A stretch of DNA of 24,299 nucleotides from a virus, in the IMG/VR virus record IMGVR_UViG_3300027247_000024, positions 1 to 24,299 of that record. One strand, written 5' to 3'. Shown in pieces: positions 1,489-13,593 of the stretch. A program made the translations under genes and the position numbers. The first letter of the stretch is position 1. Each line of letters starts with the position of its first letter. The notes under the pieces are model-generated. The model did no database searches. It was not told where the DNA came from and saw only the letters and a program-made list of their open reading frames with translations.

Positions 1489-2082
1489 ATGCCATATAAT
1501 ATCCCTAAGTATGGGAAACAATTGAACTGCTTCGCTGTATGGACAGGAGGATTTACTCCTGAAGAAGTCGATATGATTATCGACTTAGAAAAACTTCAAC
1601 AATTTGAAAAAGGTCAAGTTGGGCTCGATAAGAATGCTCCAGCTCCTGCTGAAACGCGAGATTCAGATATCTCATGGATACACCATGATCAACACAGCGA
1701 TTGGTTATTTCAGCGAATGTCAGGAATCGTTTCTGTCGTAAACTACGATAATTTTATGTATGACATCGAAGGCGTCGAAGCTTTTCAATACACAAAGTAC
1801 GGACCAAATCAACACTATACGTGGCACTGGGATGTCGAGTTCGGTTGGCAGAAATATATAAGAAAGATATCTGCATCTCTACTTCTTTCGGATCCAAGTG
1901 AATATGAAGGTGGAGAGTTAGAGATTGTAAACAACGGAAACTTTGAAGACAAAGTTTCGTTTAAACCGAATAAAGGTGATATCGTATTCTTCGCTTCATG
2001 GATGCCGCATCGAGTGAAGCCAATTACGTCAGGAACTCGTAAGAGTCTTGTAGCATGGGTAATGGGTGAAAGAGAATGTTGA
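1489..2082 (+). CDS. 2-oxoglutarate/Fe(II)-dependent oxygenase (prolyl-hydroxylase-like)
   Basis: A protein of 197 residues with the double-stranded beta-helix signature of the 2OG-Fe(II) oxygenase superfamily. The HxD iron ligands are H113 and D115 (in YTWHWDVEFGW), the distal iron ligand is H174 (in WMPHRVKP), and R184 in TRKSLVAWV is placed to bind 2-oxoglutarate. GGELEI and KGDIVFFASW are the usual core strands. Proteins of this kind hydroxylate protein side chains or small molecules using O2 and 2-oxoglutarate. The start is ATG 1489, 21 bases after the fibre gene, with AAGGA upstream. The stop overlaps the next start. Adjacency to a Pro/Asn-rich repeat protein makes that protein a plausible substrate, but this is inference. 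Confidence 0.88.
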   Translation: MPYNIPKYGKQLNCFAVWTGGFTPEEVDMIIDLEKLQQFEKGQVGLDKNAPAPAETRDSDISWIHHDQHSDWLFQRMSGIVSVVNYDNFMYDIEGVEAFQYTKYGPNQHYTWHWDVEFGWQKYIRKISASLLLSDPSEYEGGELEIVNNGNFEDKVSFKPNKGDIVFFASWMPHRVKPITSGTRKSLVAWVMGEREC

Positions 2083-2813
2083 GTTGGAATCCTTTTAAGA
2101 AGAAACCTATCATTGAGTTTTATTGCCATCGTGATGATGTAGCTACATTGCCGCAACCAAAACCTGCAGCTAAACATATACCCGATTGGTATAAGAGAAT
2201 TCCTCCTCTTATTACAGATGGGAATAATGATCGTGACTGGTCTGGATCACACAGTTTTACTGCAAAAAAATGTATGCCAATGATAGACGCCATGTCATTA
2301 GGTTATGTTATTCCTCTTATCGGCGACTTGACAGTCAGATCAAATCACGATTGCAGTACGATTGAAGTGACATCTTCTCCACAGATCAACGTATGTGAGT
2401 TTCATGACATTCGACAACTGGGAGAAAGATCTGCTCCAGGATTTCCTGCGCCTCCTCTCAAGTTTGTCAATCCATGGATCGTAAAGACTGCTCCGGGTTG
2501 GTCTACTCTTTTCGTAGCACCGATTAATAACTTTGAAAGTCATTTTACTTGTCTGTCAGGATTAGTCGATACTGATACGTATCCAAAGGAAGTCAATTTC
2601 CCTGCAATCTGGCATACTCCAAATGCTGACGTACTTCTACCAGCTGGAACTCCATTGATAGTCGCAATTCCAATTAAGCGCGATGCTATCCCATCAAAGC
2701 CTACGGTAAGAGATATGAAAGAACCAGAACAACACTTGATCAATCTCATATCGAAGATGCAAAACACACGCCGAGGTGTATATACAAAAGAACTGAGAGT
2801 ACCAAGAAAATGA
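2076..2813 (+). CDS. Phage protein resembling DUF6065, copy 1
   Basis: A protein of 245 residues with no catalytic motif I can name. The layout resembles the DUF6065-type proteins seen in phage and bacterial genomes, recalled from memory. It has a short basic N-terminus (WNPFKKKP), IPDWYK at 35-40, GYVIP at 76-80, NPWIVKTAPGWSTLFVAP at 132-149 and PAGTPLIVAIPI at 189-200. The last three blocks recur in the next protein, so the two genes are paralogues. No signal peptide or membrane segment is visible. The gene overlaps the oxygenase by 7 bases and the next gene by 4 (ATGA). Being sandwiched between an oxygenase and a glycosyltransferase suggests a part in the same modification process. Its function is unknown. 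Confidence 0.8.
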   Translation: MLSWNPFKKKPIIEFYCHRDDVATLPQPKPAAKHIPDWYKRIPPLITDGNNDRDWSGSHSFTAKKCMPMIDAMSLGYVIPLIGDLTVRSNHDCSTIEVTSSPQINVCEFHDIRQLGERSAPGFPAPPLKFVNPWIVKTAPGWSTLFVAPINNFESHFTCLSGLVDTDTYPKEVNFPAIWHTPNADVLLPAGTPLIVAIPIKRDAIPSKPTVRDMKEPEQHLINLISKMQNTRRGVYTKELRVPRK

Positions 2814-3550
2814 AAGATCTGTTTTCTTTTTTAAAACCAAAGAAAGATATTCAATTCGTAGACACTAAAAAGTTATCTTATCATAACTTTTCTGTCGAAC
2901 GCGCCGTTGACGTTCCAACAAATACTCGTAAAGTCCAACAAGACAAGTATGGCAAACATCTGATGCCATACTGTCCTGGAATTTTAGATTATGCCCAATT
3001 TGGGTATATCATTCCAGCTTGGGTAGACATTCATATCATGGCAAATAAAGCTGGCACTTCTTGGTATTTGGGTGATAGAGGCCCAAGAGGAGATCGTGGT
3101 TTTGACAATGGCGTGAAGATGGATGAAAAGTTTGTAGAAGGCGCATTTACTCCGATTGGAATTAATCCTACTGCAATCTTGTTTCCATCGCCTTGGAAAA
3201 TCTTTACACAAAAAAACATCAGCGCGTTGTTAATGCCTGCATTCTATCATTCTACTTTCCTTGAAGATTTATATGTAACCCCGGGTTTGGTAGATTATAA
3301 AAACTTTCATATCACAAACTTCATCTGTATGCCGAAGAGAGAATGTAATGTTCATATTAAGGCAGGAGATCCTTTGTTACACGTGATTCCTTTTCTCAAT
3401 AAGGATATCACTGCTTCTGTTGGTCCTGCTACTGATGAGATGATAGATAAAACTACAAATCTCATTCCTGGTGACGATAAGCAATACTATCGAAAGTTTA
3501 TGGGAGTGAAAAAGAAATTTAATATGCAAAAAGAAGAGAATAAACAATGA
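2810..3550 (+). CDS. Phage protein resembling DUF6065, copy 2 (paralogue of upstream gene)
   Basis: A protein of 246 residues, diverged from its upstream neighbour but with the same skeleton: a short start with basic KPKKD, GYIIP at 65-69 followed by a VDI strand, SPWKIFT near 127-133, a TPGLVD segment near 157-162, and KAGDPLLHVIPF at 184-195. The equivalent blocks in copy 1 are GYVIP, NPWIVKT, LSGLVD and PAGTPLIVAIPI. The middle differs: here a Gly/Asp/Arg-rich loop with GDRGPRGDRG (88-97) is inserted. The C-terminus is strongly basic then acidic. It overlaps both neighbours by 4 bases (ATGA), consistent with coupled translation. The molecular function is unknown. Confidence 0.8.
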   Translation: MKDLFSFLKPKKDIQFVDTKKLSYHNFSVERAVDVPTNTRKVQQDKYGKHLMPYCPGILDYAQFGYIIPAWVDIHIMANKAGTSWYLGDRGPRGDRGFDNGVKMDEKFVEGAFTPIGINPTAILFPSPWKIFTQKNISALLMPAFYHSTFLEDLYVTPGLVDYKNFHITNFICMPKRECNVHIKAGDPLLHVIPFLNKDITASVGPATDEMIDKTTNLIPGDDKQYYRKFMGVKKKFNMQKEENKQ

Positions 3551-4569
3551 ACATTTTTGTTTCAGTATGCTCGTACCAAGATCCTTTACTTCCTCATACT
3601 ATCAAGAGTATGATGCAAACCAAATCAAATAGAAACAATGTAGTCTATTCGATCTTTGAACAGACGCGTTATGAGGATTCTTTGGCTTGTACAGAACCTG
3701 TACTCGTAAGCAGAGATGATGTCATCTATAAAAGAATCGATCCTGAATATTCCGATGGTTGTGTTTGGGCAAGATATATTAATATGCTAAACTTGACAAA
3801 CGAGTACGACTTCATCTATCAAGTTGACTCTCATATGTTACACGATCTCAATTGGGATCGCTCTCTCGTGGAAGATTATAAGAGAGCGATGGATATGGCT
3901 GGAACAAATAAAGTAATCATCACTGGATCATGCAAATCATTTTCAATAGAAGAAGTAGATGGCGAGATTAAAACTTATCCTCGTCATGATGAATATGATG
4001 CTTGTCAAGTCAAGTACTACACTATCGATCCTTATAATTTTATTCCAGATGTTCACGGAGATCAGATTCCATCAACTGATATGCCTCGTCCGGCGTTTCA
4101 TATTATGGCCGGAAACTTCTTTACGCATACCGACTGGATCGATGAAGTCGGTTTAGATCCAAAGATCTTCTTTACAGGAGAAGAAATCATGATGACGATG
4201 ATGTCATATGCTGCTGGATATAAGATGTTTCATCATAGTAAGATAGTATCATATCATCTTGAGAACACCGGGAATTGGCATACGAAAACTCCTCCAGAAG
4301 ATGCAAAAGCTGCTCGTAGAAGAGAAATTCTTGCTGAAATTGGTGTGTGGAGATGGAAGCAATATCTCGAAGCGTGTAGAGAAGATCTTCTTCTTGAGTT
4401 TCACAAGGAATTCGGAGTAGATTTTATTAATTTGGAAATTGAAGATCGCGCAAAGACTTATAGTCTTGATGTCATTCCTGGTAAAGTTGATATCCTTGCT
4501 ATTTCGAAGAAACCAAAGAAGAAAGTAAAATTGCCTAAAACTCTTTTTATGAGTGAAGACGAAGAATGA
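3547..4569 (+). CDS. GlcNAc-type glycosyltransferase (PF11397-like)
   Basis: A protein of 340 residues resembling the glycosyltransferase (GlcNAc) family typified by eukaryotic/protist polypeptide GlcNAc-transferases. The N-terminal strand has IFVSVCSYQDPLLPHTI, followed by GCVWARYINML at 71-81 and a DxH metal/nucleotide site at YQVDSHM (D94, H96). Further on are a region with FIPDVHGDQIPS, and the acceptor-side block FFTGEEIMMTMM. In this family the enzyme transfers GlcNAc from UDP-GlcNAc to hydroxyl groups, and the founding members glycosylate hydroxyproline in Skp1. That fits a neighbour that looks like a prolyl hydroxylase, but donor and acceptor here are inferred. The C-terminal 40 residues are a lysine-rich stretch closing with SEDEE. 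Confidence 0.82.
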   Translation: MNIFVSVCSYQDPLLPHTIKSMMQTKSNRNNVVYSIFEQTRYEDSLACTEPVLVSRDDVIYKRIDPEYSDGCVWARYINMLNLTNEYDFIYQVDSHMLHDLNWDRSLVEDYKRAMDMAGTNKVIITGSCKSFSIEEVDGEIKTYPRHDEYDACQVKYYTIDPYNFIPDVHGDQIPSTDMPRPAFHIMAGNFFTHTDWIDEVGLDPKIFFTGEEIMMTMMSYAAGYKMFHHSKIVSYHLENTGNWHTKTPPEDAKAARRREILAEIGVWRWKQYLEACREDLLLEFHKEFGVDFINLEIEDRAKTYSLDVIPGKVDILAISKKPKKKVKLPKTLFMSEDEE

Positions 4570-4572
4570 TAT

Positions 4573-4590
4573 CTTAGATAAATATCTAAG
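4573..4590. promoter_or_regulatory. Inverted repeat containing a possible late-promoter element (GATAAATA)
   Basis: The 51-base gap before the desaturase contains CTTAGATA (4573-4580) and its perfect reverse complement TATCTAAG (4583-4590), separated by AA. GATAAATA at 4577-4584 matches the T4 late element TATAAATA at 7 of 8 positions. It may be a late promoter for the desaturase and downstream genes, a small hairpin, or an operator. The two roles cannot be told apart from sequence. Confidence 0.4.
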
Positions 4591-4620
4591 AAAACTTATC
4601 AATAAAGAAAGCAATGCTCG

Positions 4621-5346
4621 ATGTTCTTAAGGAGCGTAGATAGAACGTATCATCTATTTGTATTACAACTAGCGATGCCTATCATCGCAGTATGGGCAAC
4701 CATAACATATTTTTCATGGCCATGGGTATTAGCTTCCGTAGTCATGTTTTTCCTTATGCGTTGTGTTGGATCTGTGGTAACTTATCATCGAATTCACGGG
4801 CATAGAACACATACGATGCATCCTATCGTAGAGTTTATTTGTACTGGTCTTGGATTTTATGGAAGTATCTCTTCACCAATAGACTTTTGCGCGGCGCATG
4901 TTAATCATCACAAATACATGGATACAGAGAAAGATCCGCATTCTCCTAAGTATCTTGGATGGAAAGCTATGTTTCCACTCTTTTGGGTAAATCGTCAGTC
5001 CGGAGATCTTCGAACTATTATCAGATTAAGTAAAAACAAGATTACGATGTTCTATCATGATTATTATTGGCCTCTACTTCTTATTCCATTCTTACTACTT
5101 TTTGTATCTCTCGAAGCATTCTTGTTTTTGTTTGTAGTTCCTACAGGGATTTCTTTGTTTACACTTTCAATATCTACTCTGAATCATGATAAAAATGGAC
5201 CAAAAAGAATGTCATGGTGGTATGGAATATTAACAGGTGGAGAACATCATCATGACTGGCATCACAATCATGCAACAGACACGAGCGGAGAAGGCTGGCT
5301 CGATTATGTTGCCAATGCAGTAGGCACAAAAAGGGTTAAAAGATGA
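4621..5346 (+). CDS. Integral-membrane fatty-acid (acyl-lipid/acyl-CoA) desaturase
   Basis: A protein of 241 residues with all three histidine boxes of the membrane di-iron delta-9 desaturase family: H56-RIHG-H61 (HxxxxH), H93-VN-H96-H97 (HxxHH), and the terminal box in GEHHHDWHHNHA (H211, H214, H215). Hydrophobic spans near residues 12-55 and 148-188 flank the boxes, as expected for a membrane protein. This family puts a cis double bond into acyl chains using O2 and an electron donor, which raises membrane fluidity. It is shorter than cellular enzymes (usually about 280-380 residues), but the catalytic core looks complete. The start is ATG 4621. An earlier ATG at 4614 is out of frame. A Shine-Dalgarno-like AAGGAG lies just inside the gene (4628) with no start codon suitably placed after it. 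An auxiliary role in host membrane remodelling is inferred. Confidence 0.87.
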   Translation: MFLRSVDRTYHLFVLQLAMPIIAVWATITYFSWPWVLASVVMFFLMRCVGSVVTYHRIHGHRTHTMHPIVEFICTGLGFYGSISSPIDFCAAHVNHHKYMDTEKDPHSPKYLGWKAMFPLFWVNRQSGDLRTIIRLSKNKITMFYHDYYWPLLLIPFLLLFVSLEAFLFLFVVPTGISLFTLSISTLNHDKNGPKRMSWWYGILTGGEHHHDWHHNHATDTSGEGWLDYVANAVGTKRVKR

Positions 5347-5891
5347 ATATCGTAACTACTACAATTAATGACTTATCAGAAGTCGATTTCGATGATCTAT
5401 ACGAGAGATCAAGAGATGCTATCGATGTAAATTGGCCAGCAGATTCTTCTCTTACGGGTGAAGAAAGAAAGGCTAAAATCATAGAAATCATTACGAGTGG
5501 GATTAATAATGAGTGGCCCGGTTTAAATGCTCATAGCCCAAATGATGAGTATTTTATGGCCAAATCTGTAGATACTGATACTAATAAAGTCATGGCACTA
5601 GTATGCGGATATATTATAGATGGAGATACTCATGATGGAAGACATTCACTTGCAGCTGCAGATGAAAATGGTTCAAGAAATTGGCTTTATTCAGAACAGA
5701 CTCGTGCCTCACAAAATCAATATCAAAGAGATAATGGTATAACTAAATTGCTTTTTAGAAATATTCCTACAAATTCTGTTATGCATAAAATTATTAAACG
5801 CCGAGCAAATGCCGGAGATTATGAAGTTATAGAAGAAACTTTAGGATTTGGAGAAGGTTTTACAAATATAAAAGTATTACTAAATCTATGA
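5343..5891 (+). CDS. Hypothetical protein, 182 aa
   Basis: I do not recognise this protein. It is acidic in its first half (a run containing SEVDFDDLYERSRDA), with no signal peptide or membrane span. The middle segment NKVMALVCGYIIDGD looks like a beta-strand pair, and the end GFTNIKVLLNL like a closing strand. The general alpha/beta pattern could fit a GNAT-like acetyltransferase fold, but the acetyl-CoA motif (R/Q-x-x-G-x-G/A) is not visible, so I do not make that call. It overlaps the desaturase by 4 bases (ATGA) and the sulfotransferase by 4, so it should be made together with them. Codon use is more A/T-rich than in the structural genes. Confidence 0.7.
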   Translation: MNIVTTTINDLSEVDFDDLYERSRDAIDVNWPADSSLTGEERKAKIIEIITSGINNEWPGLNAHSPNDEYFMAKSVDTDTNKVMALVCGYIIDGDTHDGRHSLAAADENGSRNWLYSEQTRASQNQYQRDNGITKLLFRNIPTNSVMHKIIKRRANAGDYEVIEETLGFGEGFTNIKVLLNL

Positions 5892-6592
5892 AGTTTCTAT
5901 TGAATGTAGGTGCCGAGAAAGCTGGCACTACTTGGTTATATGATTATTTTCGAAACCACCCAGAATTCTATGATATGGGAAAAGAACTCAATATCATTCA
6001 GAGAGATGATTTGGTTCCTATCTTAGAAGACGTAGACGAATATAGAAAAGATATAGAGTCTTTCTTTCGAACAGTTTCAAGTGTAAATCAAGTGACAGGC
6101 GACTTCACACACTATGAAGGCTCGAGCGAAAACGTTTTTCGACTCGTAAAGAATGGCTTACTAAAATATGATATCGAAGTAGTGCCAGTTTATATTATGC
6201 GAGATCCTATTCGCAGAGCTTGGTCCGCTTGGAATTCTCTCGGAGGAGGTAAGATTTCAACTAAATCGACAGCTTCACAGTTTGTGATGACTAATTTTAT
6301 GTCATGCAAATATAGAGAAACGATAGAAGCTCTAGACAATGTTTTTGCCAATCCGCTCTATTTCTTCTATGAAGATTTTTTTACTCAAGACAATATCAAT
6401 AAGATATGCGATGAGTTGCAGATTTCTCATCTGCCGGCAGAATGCGACATCAAAATCAATGCTTCTCCGTATAAGAAAATACCAGACGCTTTCTTGAAAA
6501 CTTTTGGCAAATCTTCGAAGAACGTGACTGCAGTTAAATATATTTTTGAAAGATTTGAAAATGTACCATGGAAACTCGAGGATTATTCATAG
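5888..6592 (+). CDS. Sulfotransferase
   Basis: A protein of 234 residues with the two PAPS-binding elements of the sulfotransferase fold. The 5'-phosphosulfate loop is GAEKAGTTWLYDYF at 8-21. The 3'-phosphate-binding element is RDPIRRAWSAW at 105-115, in which R105 and S113 are the expected contacts. The family moves a sulfuryl group from PAPS to a hydroxyl or amine on a glycan, protein or small molecule. The protein is somewhat short for the family (about 250-300) but both ends of the fold are present. The 3' end overlaps the next gene, which must be read in another frame. With glycosyltransferases on both sides, a sulfated glycan is a reasonable but unproven product. Confidence 0.83.
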   Translation: MKFLLNVGAEKAGTTWLYDYFRNHPEFYDMGKELNIIQRDDLVPILEDVDEYRKDIESFFRTVSSVNQVTGDFTHYEGSSENVFRLVKNGLLKYDIEVVPVYIMRDPIRRAWSAWNSLGGGKISTKSTASQFVMTNFMSCKYRETIEALDNVFANPLYFFYEDFFTQDNINKICDELQISHLPAECDIKINASPYKKIPDAFLKTFGKSSKNVTAVKYIFERFENVPWKLEDYS

Positions 6593-7154
6593 ATCTACTG
6601 TCGACGAAGATGTTCGCCTAAGATTGCTTGAAGGTTTAAATAGTCCTACGCAAATGCATTACTTTGATCGTAACGAGGCTATGAACGCAACAGACGAAGC
6701 TGTACTCGAGTTTCTCGATAGAGAACAGTTTAACTGTAATAAAACTCACATCGAATATTGGTATCAGTCTCAACAAGGTTCTGGAGATCTGTGGCCTCAC
6801 GTGGACTTTAATGAGAAGCTTCGTTATAGAATTGATGCTGGAGAACAATTAAAACCAGAAGAACTGATGTCTCCAATCACCATCGCATGTTATTTAGAGG
6901 CAACTGATCTTGAAGGCGGAGAATTCTGCATCTCTGAAAGAAGTTGGTTAGACTATGAAAAAGAACTCAACGATCCAGTAGATTTAAAAGAAGAGTTGCT
7001 CAAATATACGCACGAATCTTTTCAACCCTTCGAAGGCGCAGTGTTATACTTCGAGGGCAGTCGATACTATCATTGGATCAACGAAGTCAAACGAGGATCT
7101 CGTAAAAGTATATTGATTAATTTCTGGGATGAGTGTAGCCTTAAGTCCACTTAG
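6561..7154 (+). CDS. 2-oxoglutarate/Fe(II)-dependent oxygenase-like protein
   Basis: The protein has 197 residues when started at ATG 6561. An in-frame TTG at 6546 would add five residues, but ATG is preferred. Neither has a good ribosome binding site, and translation is probably coupled to the sulfotransferase, which it overlaps by 32 bases. The 2OG oxygenase signature is WPHVDFNE (H80, D82), LEGGEF in the core, then YYHWINEV (H171) with R181 in GSRKSILINFW. Eighty-eight residues separate HxD from the distal His, including a charged helical insertion (DYEKELNDPVDLKEELLKY) not seen in the copy at 1489. It is a different subfamily from the other two oxygenase-like proteins here. The 3' end overlaps the opposing gene by 14 bases. 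Confidence 0.8.
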   Translation: MYHGNSRIIHRSTVDEDVRLRLLEGLNSPTQMHYFDRNEAMNATDEAVLEFLDREQFNCNKTHIEYWYQSQQGSGDLWPHVDFNEKLRYRIDAGEQLKPEELMSPITIACYLEATDLEGGEFCISERSWLDYEKELNDPVDLKEELLKYTHESFQPFEGAVLYFEGSRYYHWINEVKRGSRKSILINFWDECSLKST

Positions 7155-7893
7155 TTCCATGGCGAGAACTGTATTTTGTTTCAGGATCGTATGCTGCAAA
7201 GTCTTCGTAGCGAGGATCTCCTGGTTCAGCTCGCTTACCGATGCTATACTCACCGATATGATTGACAATGTTATGGCCTTCTTCGGTCTTCAGCTTACAT
7301 GTCTGCATACCAAGTTGCTGCAATGATTTTGCTACAACATATTCGCTCAAGTTCTTCTCGCCTACTGATTCGGCATGAGGAAGATCTACTATGGCGCGCG
7401 GAAAAACACTTGCCAAACTCCAAAAATATGCCTCAGAAAGTTCGCCACGGTATTTTCCAAGTGTAATGTCTGTTTCATAAGCCTGCGTTTCCTCTTCAAA
7501 GTCATACCATTTCTGTCGTGTCAAACATACCTGAGAAACGTTACGATAATCATGTAAGATCTGAGTCATGTCGAGCATTCGAATCGGACAGTTGAATGTC
7601 ACATCATCTTCTGACAGATACACATAGTCATAATCTCGTTCTCTTAGCAGTTCGAAGGTTCTATTCCATACGTATGGCAAACCCATATTCTGTTGATGTA
7701 AGAAGATCTCAGTAAAGCCAAAATTCTTGGCCAACTCGAACATCGTGCCATCATGACGACCTTTTGGCATGTCGTCGATAAAGATGCCTTCGACTTCACA
7801 ACCTTCAAAGTTTAACATGTCTCGCTGAGATTTGAGTGTAGGAATCAGATACTCGAGACGATTCGTCGACCATATTACTTTACAAACTTTCAT
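7141..7893 (-). CDS. GT-A fold glycosyltransferase
   Basis: A protein of 250 residues with the outline of a family-2-like glycosyltransferase. It opens with KVCKVIWSTNRLEYLIPTL, followed by GIFIDDMPKGRHDGT (nucleotide-binding strand and loop) and NMGLPYVWNRTFELL. The acidic metal site is in YVYLSEDDVTF (E95, D96, D97), and LSEAYFWSLASVFPR lies on the acceptor side. The C-terminal part is Tyr/Asp-rich. No membrane anchor is visible, so it would act on a soluble or membrane-surface acceptor inside the cell. It reads against the flow of the window and starts 4 bases inside the end of the upstream minus-strand gene (7890-7893), so the two form a small operon. Donor and acceptor cannot be read from sequence. 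Confidence 0.8.
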   Translation of the reverse strand: MKVCKVIWSTNRLEYLIPTLKSQRDMLNFEGCEVEGIFIDDMPKGRHDGTMFELAKNFGFTEIFLHQQNMGLPYVWNRTFELLRERDYDYVYLSEDDVTFNCPIRMLDMTQILHDYRNVSQVCLTRQKWYDFEEETQAYETDITLGKYRGELSEAYFWSLASVFPRAIVDLPHAESVGEKNLSEYVVAKSLQQLGMQTCKLKTEEGHNIVNHIGEYSIGKRAEPGDPRYEDFAAYDPETKYSSRHGTKWT

Positions 7894-8441
7894 CGCGCTT
7901 GCTCCGTATCAAAGAAGAATGTTTGAAACAGACGACCATCATATAGATCTTTACCGAAGTAATCTAAGCTGGCATGGAAGAGATCGCCGCTATAAAGAAT
8001 CAATCGATTGTATTTGTTGCCTACAATATCAATCTTATCCCACTTGGTATAGTCATATGCCTCGTGTTCGTTTGTTGGAGCTCGATACTCGCCTGTTTCT
8101 TTATGTCGAAACATTCCTGTGCCTGCGGTATGTGGTGCATCTGGTGACAAGTAACATACACCAGCCCACATACTCGTATGATCGCAATGGATCCACGTTC
8201 TATCTGAAGCAGTAGCGTATTGAAAAGCACCAGTGTAACCCGAGTCTTCGTGCCAATTGGTAATCTTTCCAATCGGATTCATCCAATGCTGAATGCAGTC
8301 CTTGACATCTTGTGTCATGAACGAAGGTGTTCGTTTTCCTGGATAGTTGCCTGTGACGCTAAAGTCTTGTGTAAGAGCAAAGGCTCTGACCGCGTCGGGA
8401 TTAATATAGAAGTTATCGATAATCATCAAGTCTAAGTTCAT
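7890..8441 (-). CDS. DUF6445-like protein, probable 2OG-Fe(II) oxygenase fold
   Basis: A protein of 183 residues resembling DUF6445-type proteins (recalled, not searched). The iron site of a 2OG oxygenase is visible: WIHCDHTSMWAGVCYLSPD gives H85 and D87, YSGDLFHASLDYFG gives H156, and R170 in GRLFQTFFFD is in the 2OG-binding position. GTGMFRHKETG sits between them, as in other members. It is the first gene of the minus-strand pair and probably depends on the minus-strand late promoter at 8473-8480. It is the third oxygenase-like gene within 7 kb and is not closely similar to the other two, so this is not a recent duplication. The substrate is unknown. Confidence 0.78.
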   Translation of the reverse strand: MNLDLMIIDNFYINPDAVRAFALTQDFSVTGNYPGKRTPSFMTQDVKDCIQHWMNPIGKITNWHEDSGYTGAFQYATASDRTWIHCDHTSMWAGVCYLSPDAPHTAGTGMFRHKETGEYRAPTNEHEAYDYTKWDKIDIVGNKYNRLILYSGDLFHASLDYFGKDLYDGRLFQTFFFDTEQAR

Positions 8442-8472: not shown

Positions 8473-8480
8473 TATTTATA
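8473..8480 (-). promoter_or_regulatory. T4-type late promoter for the minus-strand gene pair
   Basis: TATTTATA on the plus strand reads TATAAATA on the minus strand, an exact copy of the T4 late element recognised by the gp55 sigma factor. It is 32 bases upstream of the ATG at 8441 on that strand, the expected spacing for a short leader. Confidence 0.75.
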
Positions 8481-8485
8481 CGGCT

Positions 8486-8493
8486 TATAAATA
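8486..8493 (+). promoter_or_regulatory. T4-type late promoter for gp13-gp17
   Basis: An exact TATAAATA 33 bases before the gp13 start. A weaker copy, CATAAATA, follows at 8502-8509. With the minus-strand copy at 8473-8480 it forms divergent promoters whose elements are only 5 bases apart. Confidence 0.78.
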
Positions 8494-11221: not shown

Positions 11222-12884
11222 AAACTATCTCGGGAATCCGAGACTTAAAAGAGCAGACACAAAGGTCGAGTATACTCCCGAACAAGTCGCAGAGTACATT
11301 AAGTGCTCTGAGGATCCGATCTACTTTATCTTAACTTATTGTAAGATCGTCAACATCGATAAGGGTCTGATCATGTTCCCGCTCTGGGAATTCCAGAAGG
11401 AAATGATCCTCGCCTTCGAAGCCAATCGATTCGTTATCTGTAAGATGCCTCGCCAGGTTGGTAAGACAACTACTGTTGCCGCTTACTTACTTTGGAAGAT
11501 TGTATTCAACGAAGAGTATTCGATCGCTATTCTGGCCAACAAAGACAGACAAGCGCGAGAAATCCTTGGTCGTATTCAGTTAATGTTTGAGCATCTTCCG
11601 AAGTGGCTTCAGATGGGTGTGACTGAATGGAATAAGGGTAACATTAAGCTTGAGAACGGATCTGAAATCCTTGCCTCAGCTACTTCATCATCTGCTATTC
11701 GTGGTACGTCTCAGAACATGGTTTACCTCGACGAGTTTGCCTTCGTTCCGACCAACATTCAAGACGAGTTCTTCGCGTCGGTTTATCCTACCATTTCATC
11801 TGGTCAAAGTTCGAAGGTTCTGGTCACATCGACTCCAAATGGTATGAATATGTTTTACCGCATTTGGACCGAGTCCGAAGAAGGTAGAAATGCTTATGCT
11901 CGTGTCGACGTTCACTGGTCACAGATTCCTGGCCGTGACGAAGCATGGAGAGAACAGACGATCAGTAATACGTCTGAAGAACAGTTCAGACAGGAATATG
12001 AGTGCGAGTTCCTTGGATCTTCGAACACTCTGATCCATCCTACCAAACTTCGTAATATGGTCTATAAACATCCGATTGCACAGGCAGACGGTGGACTCAA
12101 GATCTACGAAGAGCCAGAGCCAGATACAATTTATGCTATCGTAGTTGATACTTCTCGCGGAGCCGGAGCCGACTATTCTGCTTTCATTGTCGTCAACGTA
12201 TCGACGATGCCTTATCGACAAGTAGCAGCATATCGAAATAACCTGATATCGCCGATGATCTATCCGAACATCATCTATAATGCGGCCATCAAATATAACG
12301 ATGCTCTTGTTCTTGTCGAAACAAACGATATTGGTCAACAAGTAGCTGACATCTTGCACTACGATCTTGAGTATGACGGCGTTCTCGTGACTGCAAATAA
12401 CGGCAGAACGGGTCAAAGTCTGTCAGGCGGTTTTGCTACGACGACTCACTATGGTGTCAAGACTACGAAGCAGGTGAAACGAGTTGGCTGTGCCACACTC
12501 AAGACTCTCGTCGAATCTGATAAGTTCTTGATCTATGACTATGACACTATCTATGAGTTGACTCGCTTCTCGCTCAAGAATAGTTTGAAAGGCAACCAGT
12601 CATACGAAGCAGAAGACGGTAACGATGACATGGCCATGTGTTGTGTTCTCTTTGCTTGGTTGACTACGCAGCCTTATCTGAAAGAAATTACGAATATTGA
12701 TATTCGTATGCAAATTTACGAACAGAATGAGAAGATGCTTGAGCAGCAGATGCTTCCATTTGGACTCATGAGTACAGGCGACGATCAACACGATGAAGAA
12801 GTAAACGAATCACTCTTCGATGGTGGACCAAAAGATGATTTCTGGGTTGCCAAGAAGATGGGATTCTTTGAGGGGAACTTTTGA
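11211..12884 (+). CDS. gp17: Large terminase gp17 (packaging ATPase and nuclease)
   Basis: A protein of 557 residues (T4 gp17 is 610). The ATPase domain has Walker A PRQVGKTT at 80-87, Walker B VYLDEF at 171-176 with the catalytic Glu, and the coupling motif TSTPNG at 206-211. The C-terminal RNase H-like nuclease shows D313 (VVDTSRGAG), E370 (LVLVETND) and D472/D473 (DGNDDMAM), matching the T4 catalytic triad by order. It pumps DNA into the prohead through the gp20 portal and makes the headful cuts. All catalytic residues are intact. The stop is followed one base later by the Coq4-like gene, an unusual neighbour. Confidence 0.95.
   Translation: MASENYLGNPRLKRADTKVEYTPEQVAEYIKCSEDPIYFILTYCKIVNIDKGLIMFPLWEFQKEMILAFEANRFVICKMPRQVGKTTTVAAYLLWKIVFNEEYSIAILANKDRQAREILGRIQLMFEHLPKWLQMGVTEWNKGNIKLENGSEILASATSSSAIRGTSQNMVYLDEFAFVPTNIQDEFFASVYPTISSGQSSKVLVTSTPNGMNMFYRIWTESEEGRNAYARVDVHWSQIPGRDEAWREQTISNTSEEQFRQEYECEFLGSSNTLIHPTKLRNMVYKHPIAQADGGLKIYEEPEPDTIYAIVVDTSRGAGADYSAFIVVNVSTMPYRQVAAYRNNLISPMIYPNIIYNAAIKYNDALVLVETNDIGQQVADILHYDLEYDGVLVTANNGRTGQSLSGGFATTTHYGVKTTKQVKRVGCATLKTLVESDKFLIYDYDTIYELTRFSLKNSLKGNQSYEAEDGNDDMAMCCVLFAWLTTQPYLKEITNIDIRMQIYEQNEKMLEQQMLPFGLMSTGDDQHDEEVNESLFDGGPKDDFWVAKKMGFFEGNF
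12870..12876 (+). promoter_or_regulatory. Ribosome binding site that fixes the Coq4-like start at 12886
   Basis: GAGGGGA lies nine bases before ATG 12886. A longer in-frame reading from 12820 would overlap gp17 by 65 bases, add residues unlike Coq4 and lack such a site, so 12886 is chosen. Confidence 0.7.
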
Positions 12885-12885
12885 T

Positions 12886-13593
12886 ATGGATGATTATAAT
12901 TTTGATATAAAACGCATGTTAAGAGCATTGAAGCCAGCGTTATCACATCCTACAAACGGATTGATTTTTATTGCTCAAGTAGTTAGATATGGAAGTGGAC
13001 CTTCTCTGAAGTATACATATAAAAAGATGCTGGAATCTCGACTCGGCGGAGAAATGGCTTTTAGTAATGAAGAAATTTCAAGCTATATTCCTACACTTTG
13101 TGATCGTCCAGAAGGTTCTGTTGGAAGAGTTTCTTATGAAAAGTTTAAAGAACAACAAATAAATGTAGTAAAAGTCAGCCGAAGACAGACAAACGACAAG
13201 TGGATTGAAGCCAAACACCCATATAGTTGGATGGCTAGACGTTATAGGGATACTCATGATATTTGGCATATTCTTACTGGTTATCCAACAACAGTAGATG
13301 GAGAAATGTGCATTACTATGTTTTCGTTTGCTCAAACAAGAGCTTTAAGTTGGCTGACTATTAGTTTGACTATTCTTTTTAATGTAGGAGGACCATTAGG
13401 ATTAAGAAATCTTACACCTACACATCTTAAAATGTTATACGAAGCATATCGAAATGGTAAAAAAGCTAAGTTCTTACTTGCAGAAGATTATGACAAACTA
13501 CTATCTGAAAATTTACAAGATGCTAGGGAAAGATTAAATATCAGAAGTCCACGCTTTTTTATAGATAAATCCCCTAATTTAATGAAGTTATAA
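12886..13593 (+). CDS. coq4: Coq4-like ubiquinone-biosynthesis protein
   Basis: A protein of 235 residues. The Coq4 signature is complete: RYRDTHDIWHILTGYPTTVDGE contains H124, D125, H128 and E140, the HDxxH-x11-E metal site, followed by FSFAQTRAL. Upstream RPEGSVGRVSYEKF (74-87) matches the conserved 'P-G-S-x-G-R-x-Y' block. In eukaryotes Coq4 is a metal- and lipid-binding member of the coenzyme Q complex and has recently been tied to the C1 decarboxylation step; some proteobacteria carry homologues. Here it lies between terminase and tail sheath, among genes that normally adjoin. Its codons (AGA, TTA, AAA) are visibly more A/T-rich than those of gp17 and gp18, suggesting separate acquisition. 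It has no signal peptide. A role in host quinone supply during infection is inferred. Confidence 0.87.
   Translation: MDDYNFDIKRMLRALKPALSHPTNGLIFIAQVVRYGSGPSLKYTYKKMLESRLGGEMAFSNEEISSYIPTLCDRPEGSVGRVSYEKFKEQQINVVKVSRRQTNDKWIEAKHPYSWMARRYRDTHDIWHILTGYPTTVDGEMCITMFSFAQTRALSWLTISLTILFNVGGPLGLRNLTPTHLKMLYEAYRNGKKAKFLLAEDYDKLLSENLQDARERLNIRSPRFFIDKSPNLMKL

Follow-up and report, generated by a model that had tools for sequence, protein, structure and literature searches.

A compact and divergent phage lineage of delta-9-type acyl desaturases, exchanged and lost at one locus of T4-like phages

An uncultured T4-like phage encodes a protein that, judged by its sequence profiles and predicted fold, represents a short phage lineage that has diverged within the delta-9 acyl-desaturase family, and divergent alleles of this desaturase swap at one site among closely related phages. 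The stretch of DNA analysed, hereafter the window, comes from IMG/VR as a virus record of 24.3 kb (24,299 nucleotides) whose terminase and major capsid protein are at most ~57% and ~62% identical, respectively, to those of T4-like phages, many of them cyanophages. Its phage origin is secure because T4-like genes gp13 to gp23 follow; tRNA genes, sought as a clue to the host, were not found. Positions 1489-8441 of the window are dense in modification genes, encoding two 2OG oxygenases, DUF6445 and DUF6065 proteins, glycosyltransferases and a sulfotransferase-like protein. Directly upstream of the cassette, positions 1-1467 encode a long, apparently tail-fibre- or adhesin-like protein in which PGN and NGPQNFN-type units form a tandem array with periods of ~27-33 nt.

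The initial annotation had described a membrane acyl desaturase with three His boxes, an assignment that motifs, profiles, predicted fold and selection all support. Each of the box histidines (H56, H61, H93, H96, H97, H211, H214 and H215) is indeed in place, and H189, located between boxes 2 and 3 and absent from that annotation, brings the number of histidines to the nine that are typical of stearoyl-CoA desaturase (Table 1). Across 28 phage desaturases, with identities to the window protein down to 20%, the invariant columns are G50, H56, R57, H61, H93, H96, H97, D105, P106, H107, H189, E208, H211, H214 and H215, and no others; because the columns that survive such divergence are these residues, the histidine pattern is not due to chance. 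A secondary feature of SCD/delta-9 desaturases is absent from the window protein, namely the second-shell asparagine (the N of INSLxH in cellular enzymes, four residues before H189), which is Ser185 here and alanine in relatives. The second-shell asparagine has a role in SCD1. The gene is under purifying selection, with a dN/dS of 0.03 between the window and its relative L004 (simple Nei-Gojobori; a rough value, given the high dS of 1.8), 0.03-0.13 among close pairs, and 0.05-0.19 for pairs with computable dS other than window/L004.

Table 1. Features of the desaturase locus (positions in the window).
Feature	Position	Strand	Remarks
Membrane acyl desaturase (SCD1/delta-9 type by motifs, profiles and predicted fold), 241 aa	4621..5346	+	ATG start, TGA stop, intact ORF
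His box 1, HX4H = HRIHGH (H56-H61)	4786..4803	+	H56/H61 invariant
His box 2, HXXHH (H93-H97), then DPH (residues 105-107)	4897..4911	+	Invariant
H189, ninth metal-ligand-type histidine	5185..5187	+	Invariant in 28; aligns with H of INSLxH (cellular desaturases)
His box 3, HXXHH (H211-H215)	5251..5265	+	Invariant
Downstream ORF, 182 aa	5343..5891	+	4-nt overlap with desaturase stop; no family match
3' remnant of deleted upstream gene (~177 aa)	4602..4641	+	No Pfam match; resembles a sulfotransferase by eye
Perfect 9-bp inverted repeat TCTTAGATA-AA-TATCTAAGA	4572..4591	.	Spacer left by gene deletion
T4-type late-promoter-like motif GATAAATA	4577..4584	+	36 nt before desaturase start codon

Assignment to a family depended on profiles built from many sequences. 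The window protein has no match to the Pfam family PF00487 (FA_desaturase), and a relative matches it below threshold (0.0024), the best-scoring relative reaching 18.1 bits against the curated cut-off of 29.7; NCBIfam DesA matches the window protein partially (1.7e-7), and phmmer relates it to SCD1 at 4e-5. Members of the family were gathered from IMG/VR at 91% to 47% identity and other virus-encoded desaturases were added. A PDB search with a profile of 27 phage desaturases placed SCD1 (5e-32, profile positions 9-239) 76 bits ahead of alkane monooxygenase (AlkB; 1e-8), although this profile is biased towards SCD1 because some of its rows are ordinary delta-9 desaturases. A profile restricted to the family of the window protein matched SCD1 at 6e-5 and did not match AlkB. 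As a control, the family profile was run on an Acinetobacter genome in which PF00487 matches at seven places; it scored 50 and 35 bits on two of the DesA/delta-9 type and less than 6 bits on the remaining five, which include hydroxylase-like paralogs. An AlphaFold2 model from a deeper alignment (pLDDT 91.5, pTM 0.89), which superseded an earlier one (pLDDT 78), has the four-transmembrane fold of SCD1, and the only significant Foldseek matches in the PDB were SCD entries (TM 0.77 by query, 0.59 by target), with AlkB not among the matches. Thus, the grouping with hydroxylases that the initial annotation had named as grounds for abandoning its claim was looked for by profile and fold comparison and was not found.

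With SCD1 (PDB 4ymk, 6wf2, 4zyo) the window protein shares the nine-histidine ligand set, the DPH motif and the predicted fold across nearly its full length, but it is only 18-19% identical, ~100 aa shorter, and carries serine in place of the second-shell asparagine. The nearest cellular relatives by profile are bacterial DesA/DesC-type delta-9 desaturases (relatives of NCBIfam NF049918; best 1e-14), which at ~300-430 aa have longer ends; overall, the window protein is ~60-190 aa shorter than cellular relatives. A close cellular donor was not found in 398 Pseudomonadota genomes, a narrow-alignment profile search of genome contigs returned no cellular relative, and a genome-contig search with the Acinetobacter protein gave matches essentially in Acinetobacter only. 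The FA_desaturase of Pelagibacter phage Mosig (QOI69044.1, 216 aa) is likewise compact and comes from a T4-like phage, but it is ~23% identical to the window protein, sits in another gene neighbourhood, and clears the Pfam cut-off that the family of the window protein fails. A tree unites the two families (support 93/98) on long branches, and this grouping is not relied on here.

Wherever the sequence of a relative extends far enough to tell, its desaturase occupies a hotspot upstream of gp13. When L058, L061 and L066 are compared with the window, flanking genes are mostly 82-99% identical whereas the desaturases are ~50-56% identical; L004 displays the reverse pattern, with a desaturase identity of 91% and several flanking genes at 64-86%. 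Between phages, the identity of the desaturases is no guide to that of gp13 (Spearman 0.19; the pairs are not independent), and L066 groups with L070 and L071 in the desaturase tree but with L061 in the gp13 tree (100/100 in both cases). Given these discordant identities and groupings, homologous desaturases replace one another at this site. Divergence of the 182-aa downstream ORF tracks the desaturase allele.

The same site has also lost genes. An upstream sulfotransferase-like gene (~177 aa) is intact in L004, L005, L058 and L061, and only its 3' end persists in the window. In L358 and L396, a matching spacer remains as a scar where most of the cassette has gone: the desaturase and the 182-aa gene are missing, as are the sulfotransferase-like gene and the greater part of the 2OG oxygenase; since phages without the cassette exist, the desaturase is not essential. 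Palindrome matches in L395 and L397 were dropped, as they are terminator-like sequence with no adjoining phage-family genes. In L065 (799-1908), a 369-aa ORF joins an N-terminally truncated desaturase, in frame, to the protein encoded just before the desaturase in L063, either a natural deletion fusion or an assembly error.

A Coq4 gene (12820-13593; Pfam Coq4 4e-21) is flanked by terminase, whose end it overlaps, and by tail sheath. Coq4-like genes were found at 42 loci of IMG/VR with identities of 61-100%, and those that could be placed have this same location. The proposal that the desaturase is paired with this quinone gene holds insofar as both are present and co-occur in the closest lineage, with the desaturase found in 10/10 Coq4 contigs that have enough upstream DNA (about seven distinct viruses). 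The two genes are, however, 7.5 kb apart and separable: L358 retains Coq4 but has a deletion of the desaturase cassette, and conversely the desaturase is present in L065 and L071, where gp17 and gp18 are adjacent and no Coq4 stands between them. On these cases Coq4 is no obligate partner of the desaturase and the two were rejected as a functional unit; shared lineage is the best explanation for the association.

The candidate late promoter of the desaturase is an octamer, GATAAATA, identical to the site before gp23 and with the same geometry as the sites before gp13, gp18, gp19, gp22 and gp23. Its ATAAATA core occurs 13 times in the window against 5.4 expected (0/100 shuffles as high), and most plus-strand copies precede a structural gene (gp13, gp18, gp19, gp67-like, gp22 or gp23) by 17-44 nt, a spacing that corresponds to the T4 late-promoter arrangement. 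Two TATAAATA motifs in opposite orientations at 8473-8493, between the divergent DUF6445 gene and gp13, likely constitute a bidirectional late promoter.

Most likely, the enzyme desaturates acyl chains of the host membrane in the late phase of infection, and we consider it quite probable that the protein is a compact SCD/delta-9 acyl desaturase that is expressed late, unsaturates host acyl chains and fluidises the membrane. As a stearoyl-CoA/delta-9-type acyl desaturase, the enzyme would have four transmembrane helices and a di-metal (presumably di-iron) centre; a phage late promoter would drive its expression during infection, and it would insert into the host inner membrane. There, with O2 and with electrons supplied by a host carrier, it would introduce a double bond into host acyl chains, with acyl-CoA or the acyl groups of membrane lipids as substrate, and the membrane would become more fluid in the late phase of virion assembly and lysis.

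We regard it as unlikely that a di-iron enzyme with the desaturase fold performs some other reaction, as a hydroxylase, ketolase or monooxygenase acting on a lipid or a lipid-linked glycan. Such a reading draws on the catalytic diversity of the superfamily, the replaced second-shell asparagine and a setting among glycosyltransferase, sulfotransferase-like and 2OG-oxygenase genes, but it conflicts with the 76-bit preference for SCD1 over AlkB, the negligible scores of hydroxylase-like paralogs in the control genome, and SCD1 being the only significant PDB fold. The same adjoining genes, downstream of tail-fibre-like genes, could instead suggest that an active desaturase works with these surface-modifying enzymes, its substrate being the acyl chain of a lipid at the outer surface and not bulk phospholipid, for example against superinfection. 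This seems quite improbable, as L063 and L071 keep the desaturase while the neighbours differ, and nothing was found that ties the gene directly to lipid A or another surface lipid.

Very unlikely, in our view, is that the desaturase is a passenger of a recombination hotspot and matters little to the phage. Its loss with a scar in L358 and L396 and the loss of the neighbouring gene in the window would fit a passenger; strong purifying selection, the greater frequency of swaps for other intact alleles than of loss, and the retention of the gene in all ten informative Coq4 contigs argue against it.

Lipid desaturases had been called rare in phages, and among isolates this stands: Mosig is the sole genuine phage record with a detectable relative among 50,697, and a nucleotide search for the cassette among phage isolates gave no match. 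Matches labelled as Acinetobacter phage were set aside, the protein being taken as bacterial because it is 96-99% identical to Acinetobacter chromosomal copies; one such record, L074 (CAKLQH020000002.1, Acinetobacter phage MD-2021a), looks bacterial-chromosomal, with btuB and baeR beside the desaturase. Cyanophage lipid desaturases were reportedly the subject of a 2018 paper in the ISME Journal (doi 10.1038/ismej.2017.159), which the published studies named below cite. Among environmental viruses, rarity does not hold, as at least 574 IMG/VR stretches (which may include non-phage stretches) encode a delta-9-type desaturase, more than 90 environmental desaturases are of the Mosig type, and examples have been published, including the vFAD desaturases of Arctic brine viruses (PMC7300359), desaturases in Baikal Nitrospirota viruses (PMC7678222) and one in a fonsimyophage (PMC7029224). 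The membrane-fluidity hypothesis was put forward in those studies (PMC7300359, PMC7678222, PMC7029224), whose desaturases are the same kind of auxiliary gene with the same proposed membrane role, a likeness by description. Phage desaturases are, therefore, a known kind; new here are the divergent family, its swap-and-loss genome position and its likely late expression.

The family of the window protein is a divergent addition to the lipid-desaturating enzymes of phages, and because Pfam misses it, Pfam-based counts of phage desaturases will come out too low. It is conceivable, although we hold it doubtful, that it represents a phage-specific minimal desaturase lineage with its own late promoter, remodelling host lipids for assembly or lysis and diversified by frequent allele replacement; if so, the phage may adjust the acyl product to its host or to temperature. 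The interesting part of the family is its pattern of exchange and loss: closely related phages that have exchanged desaturases of ~50% identity at a single locus, and others in which natural deletions occurred, provide matched pairs for testing how the enzyme may benefit the phage.
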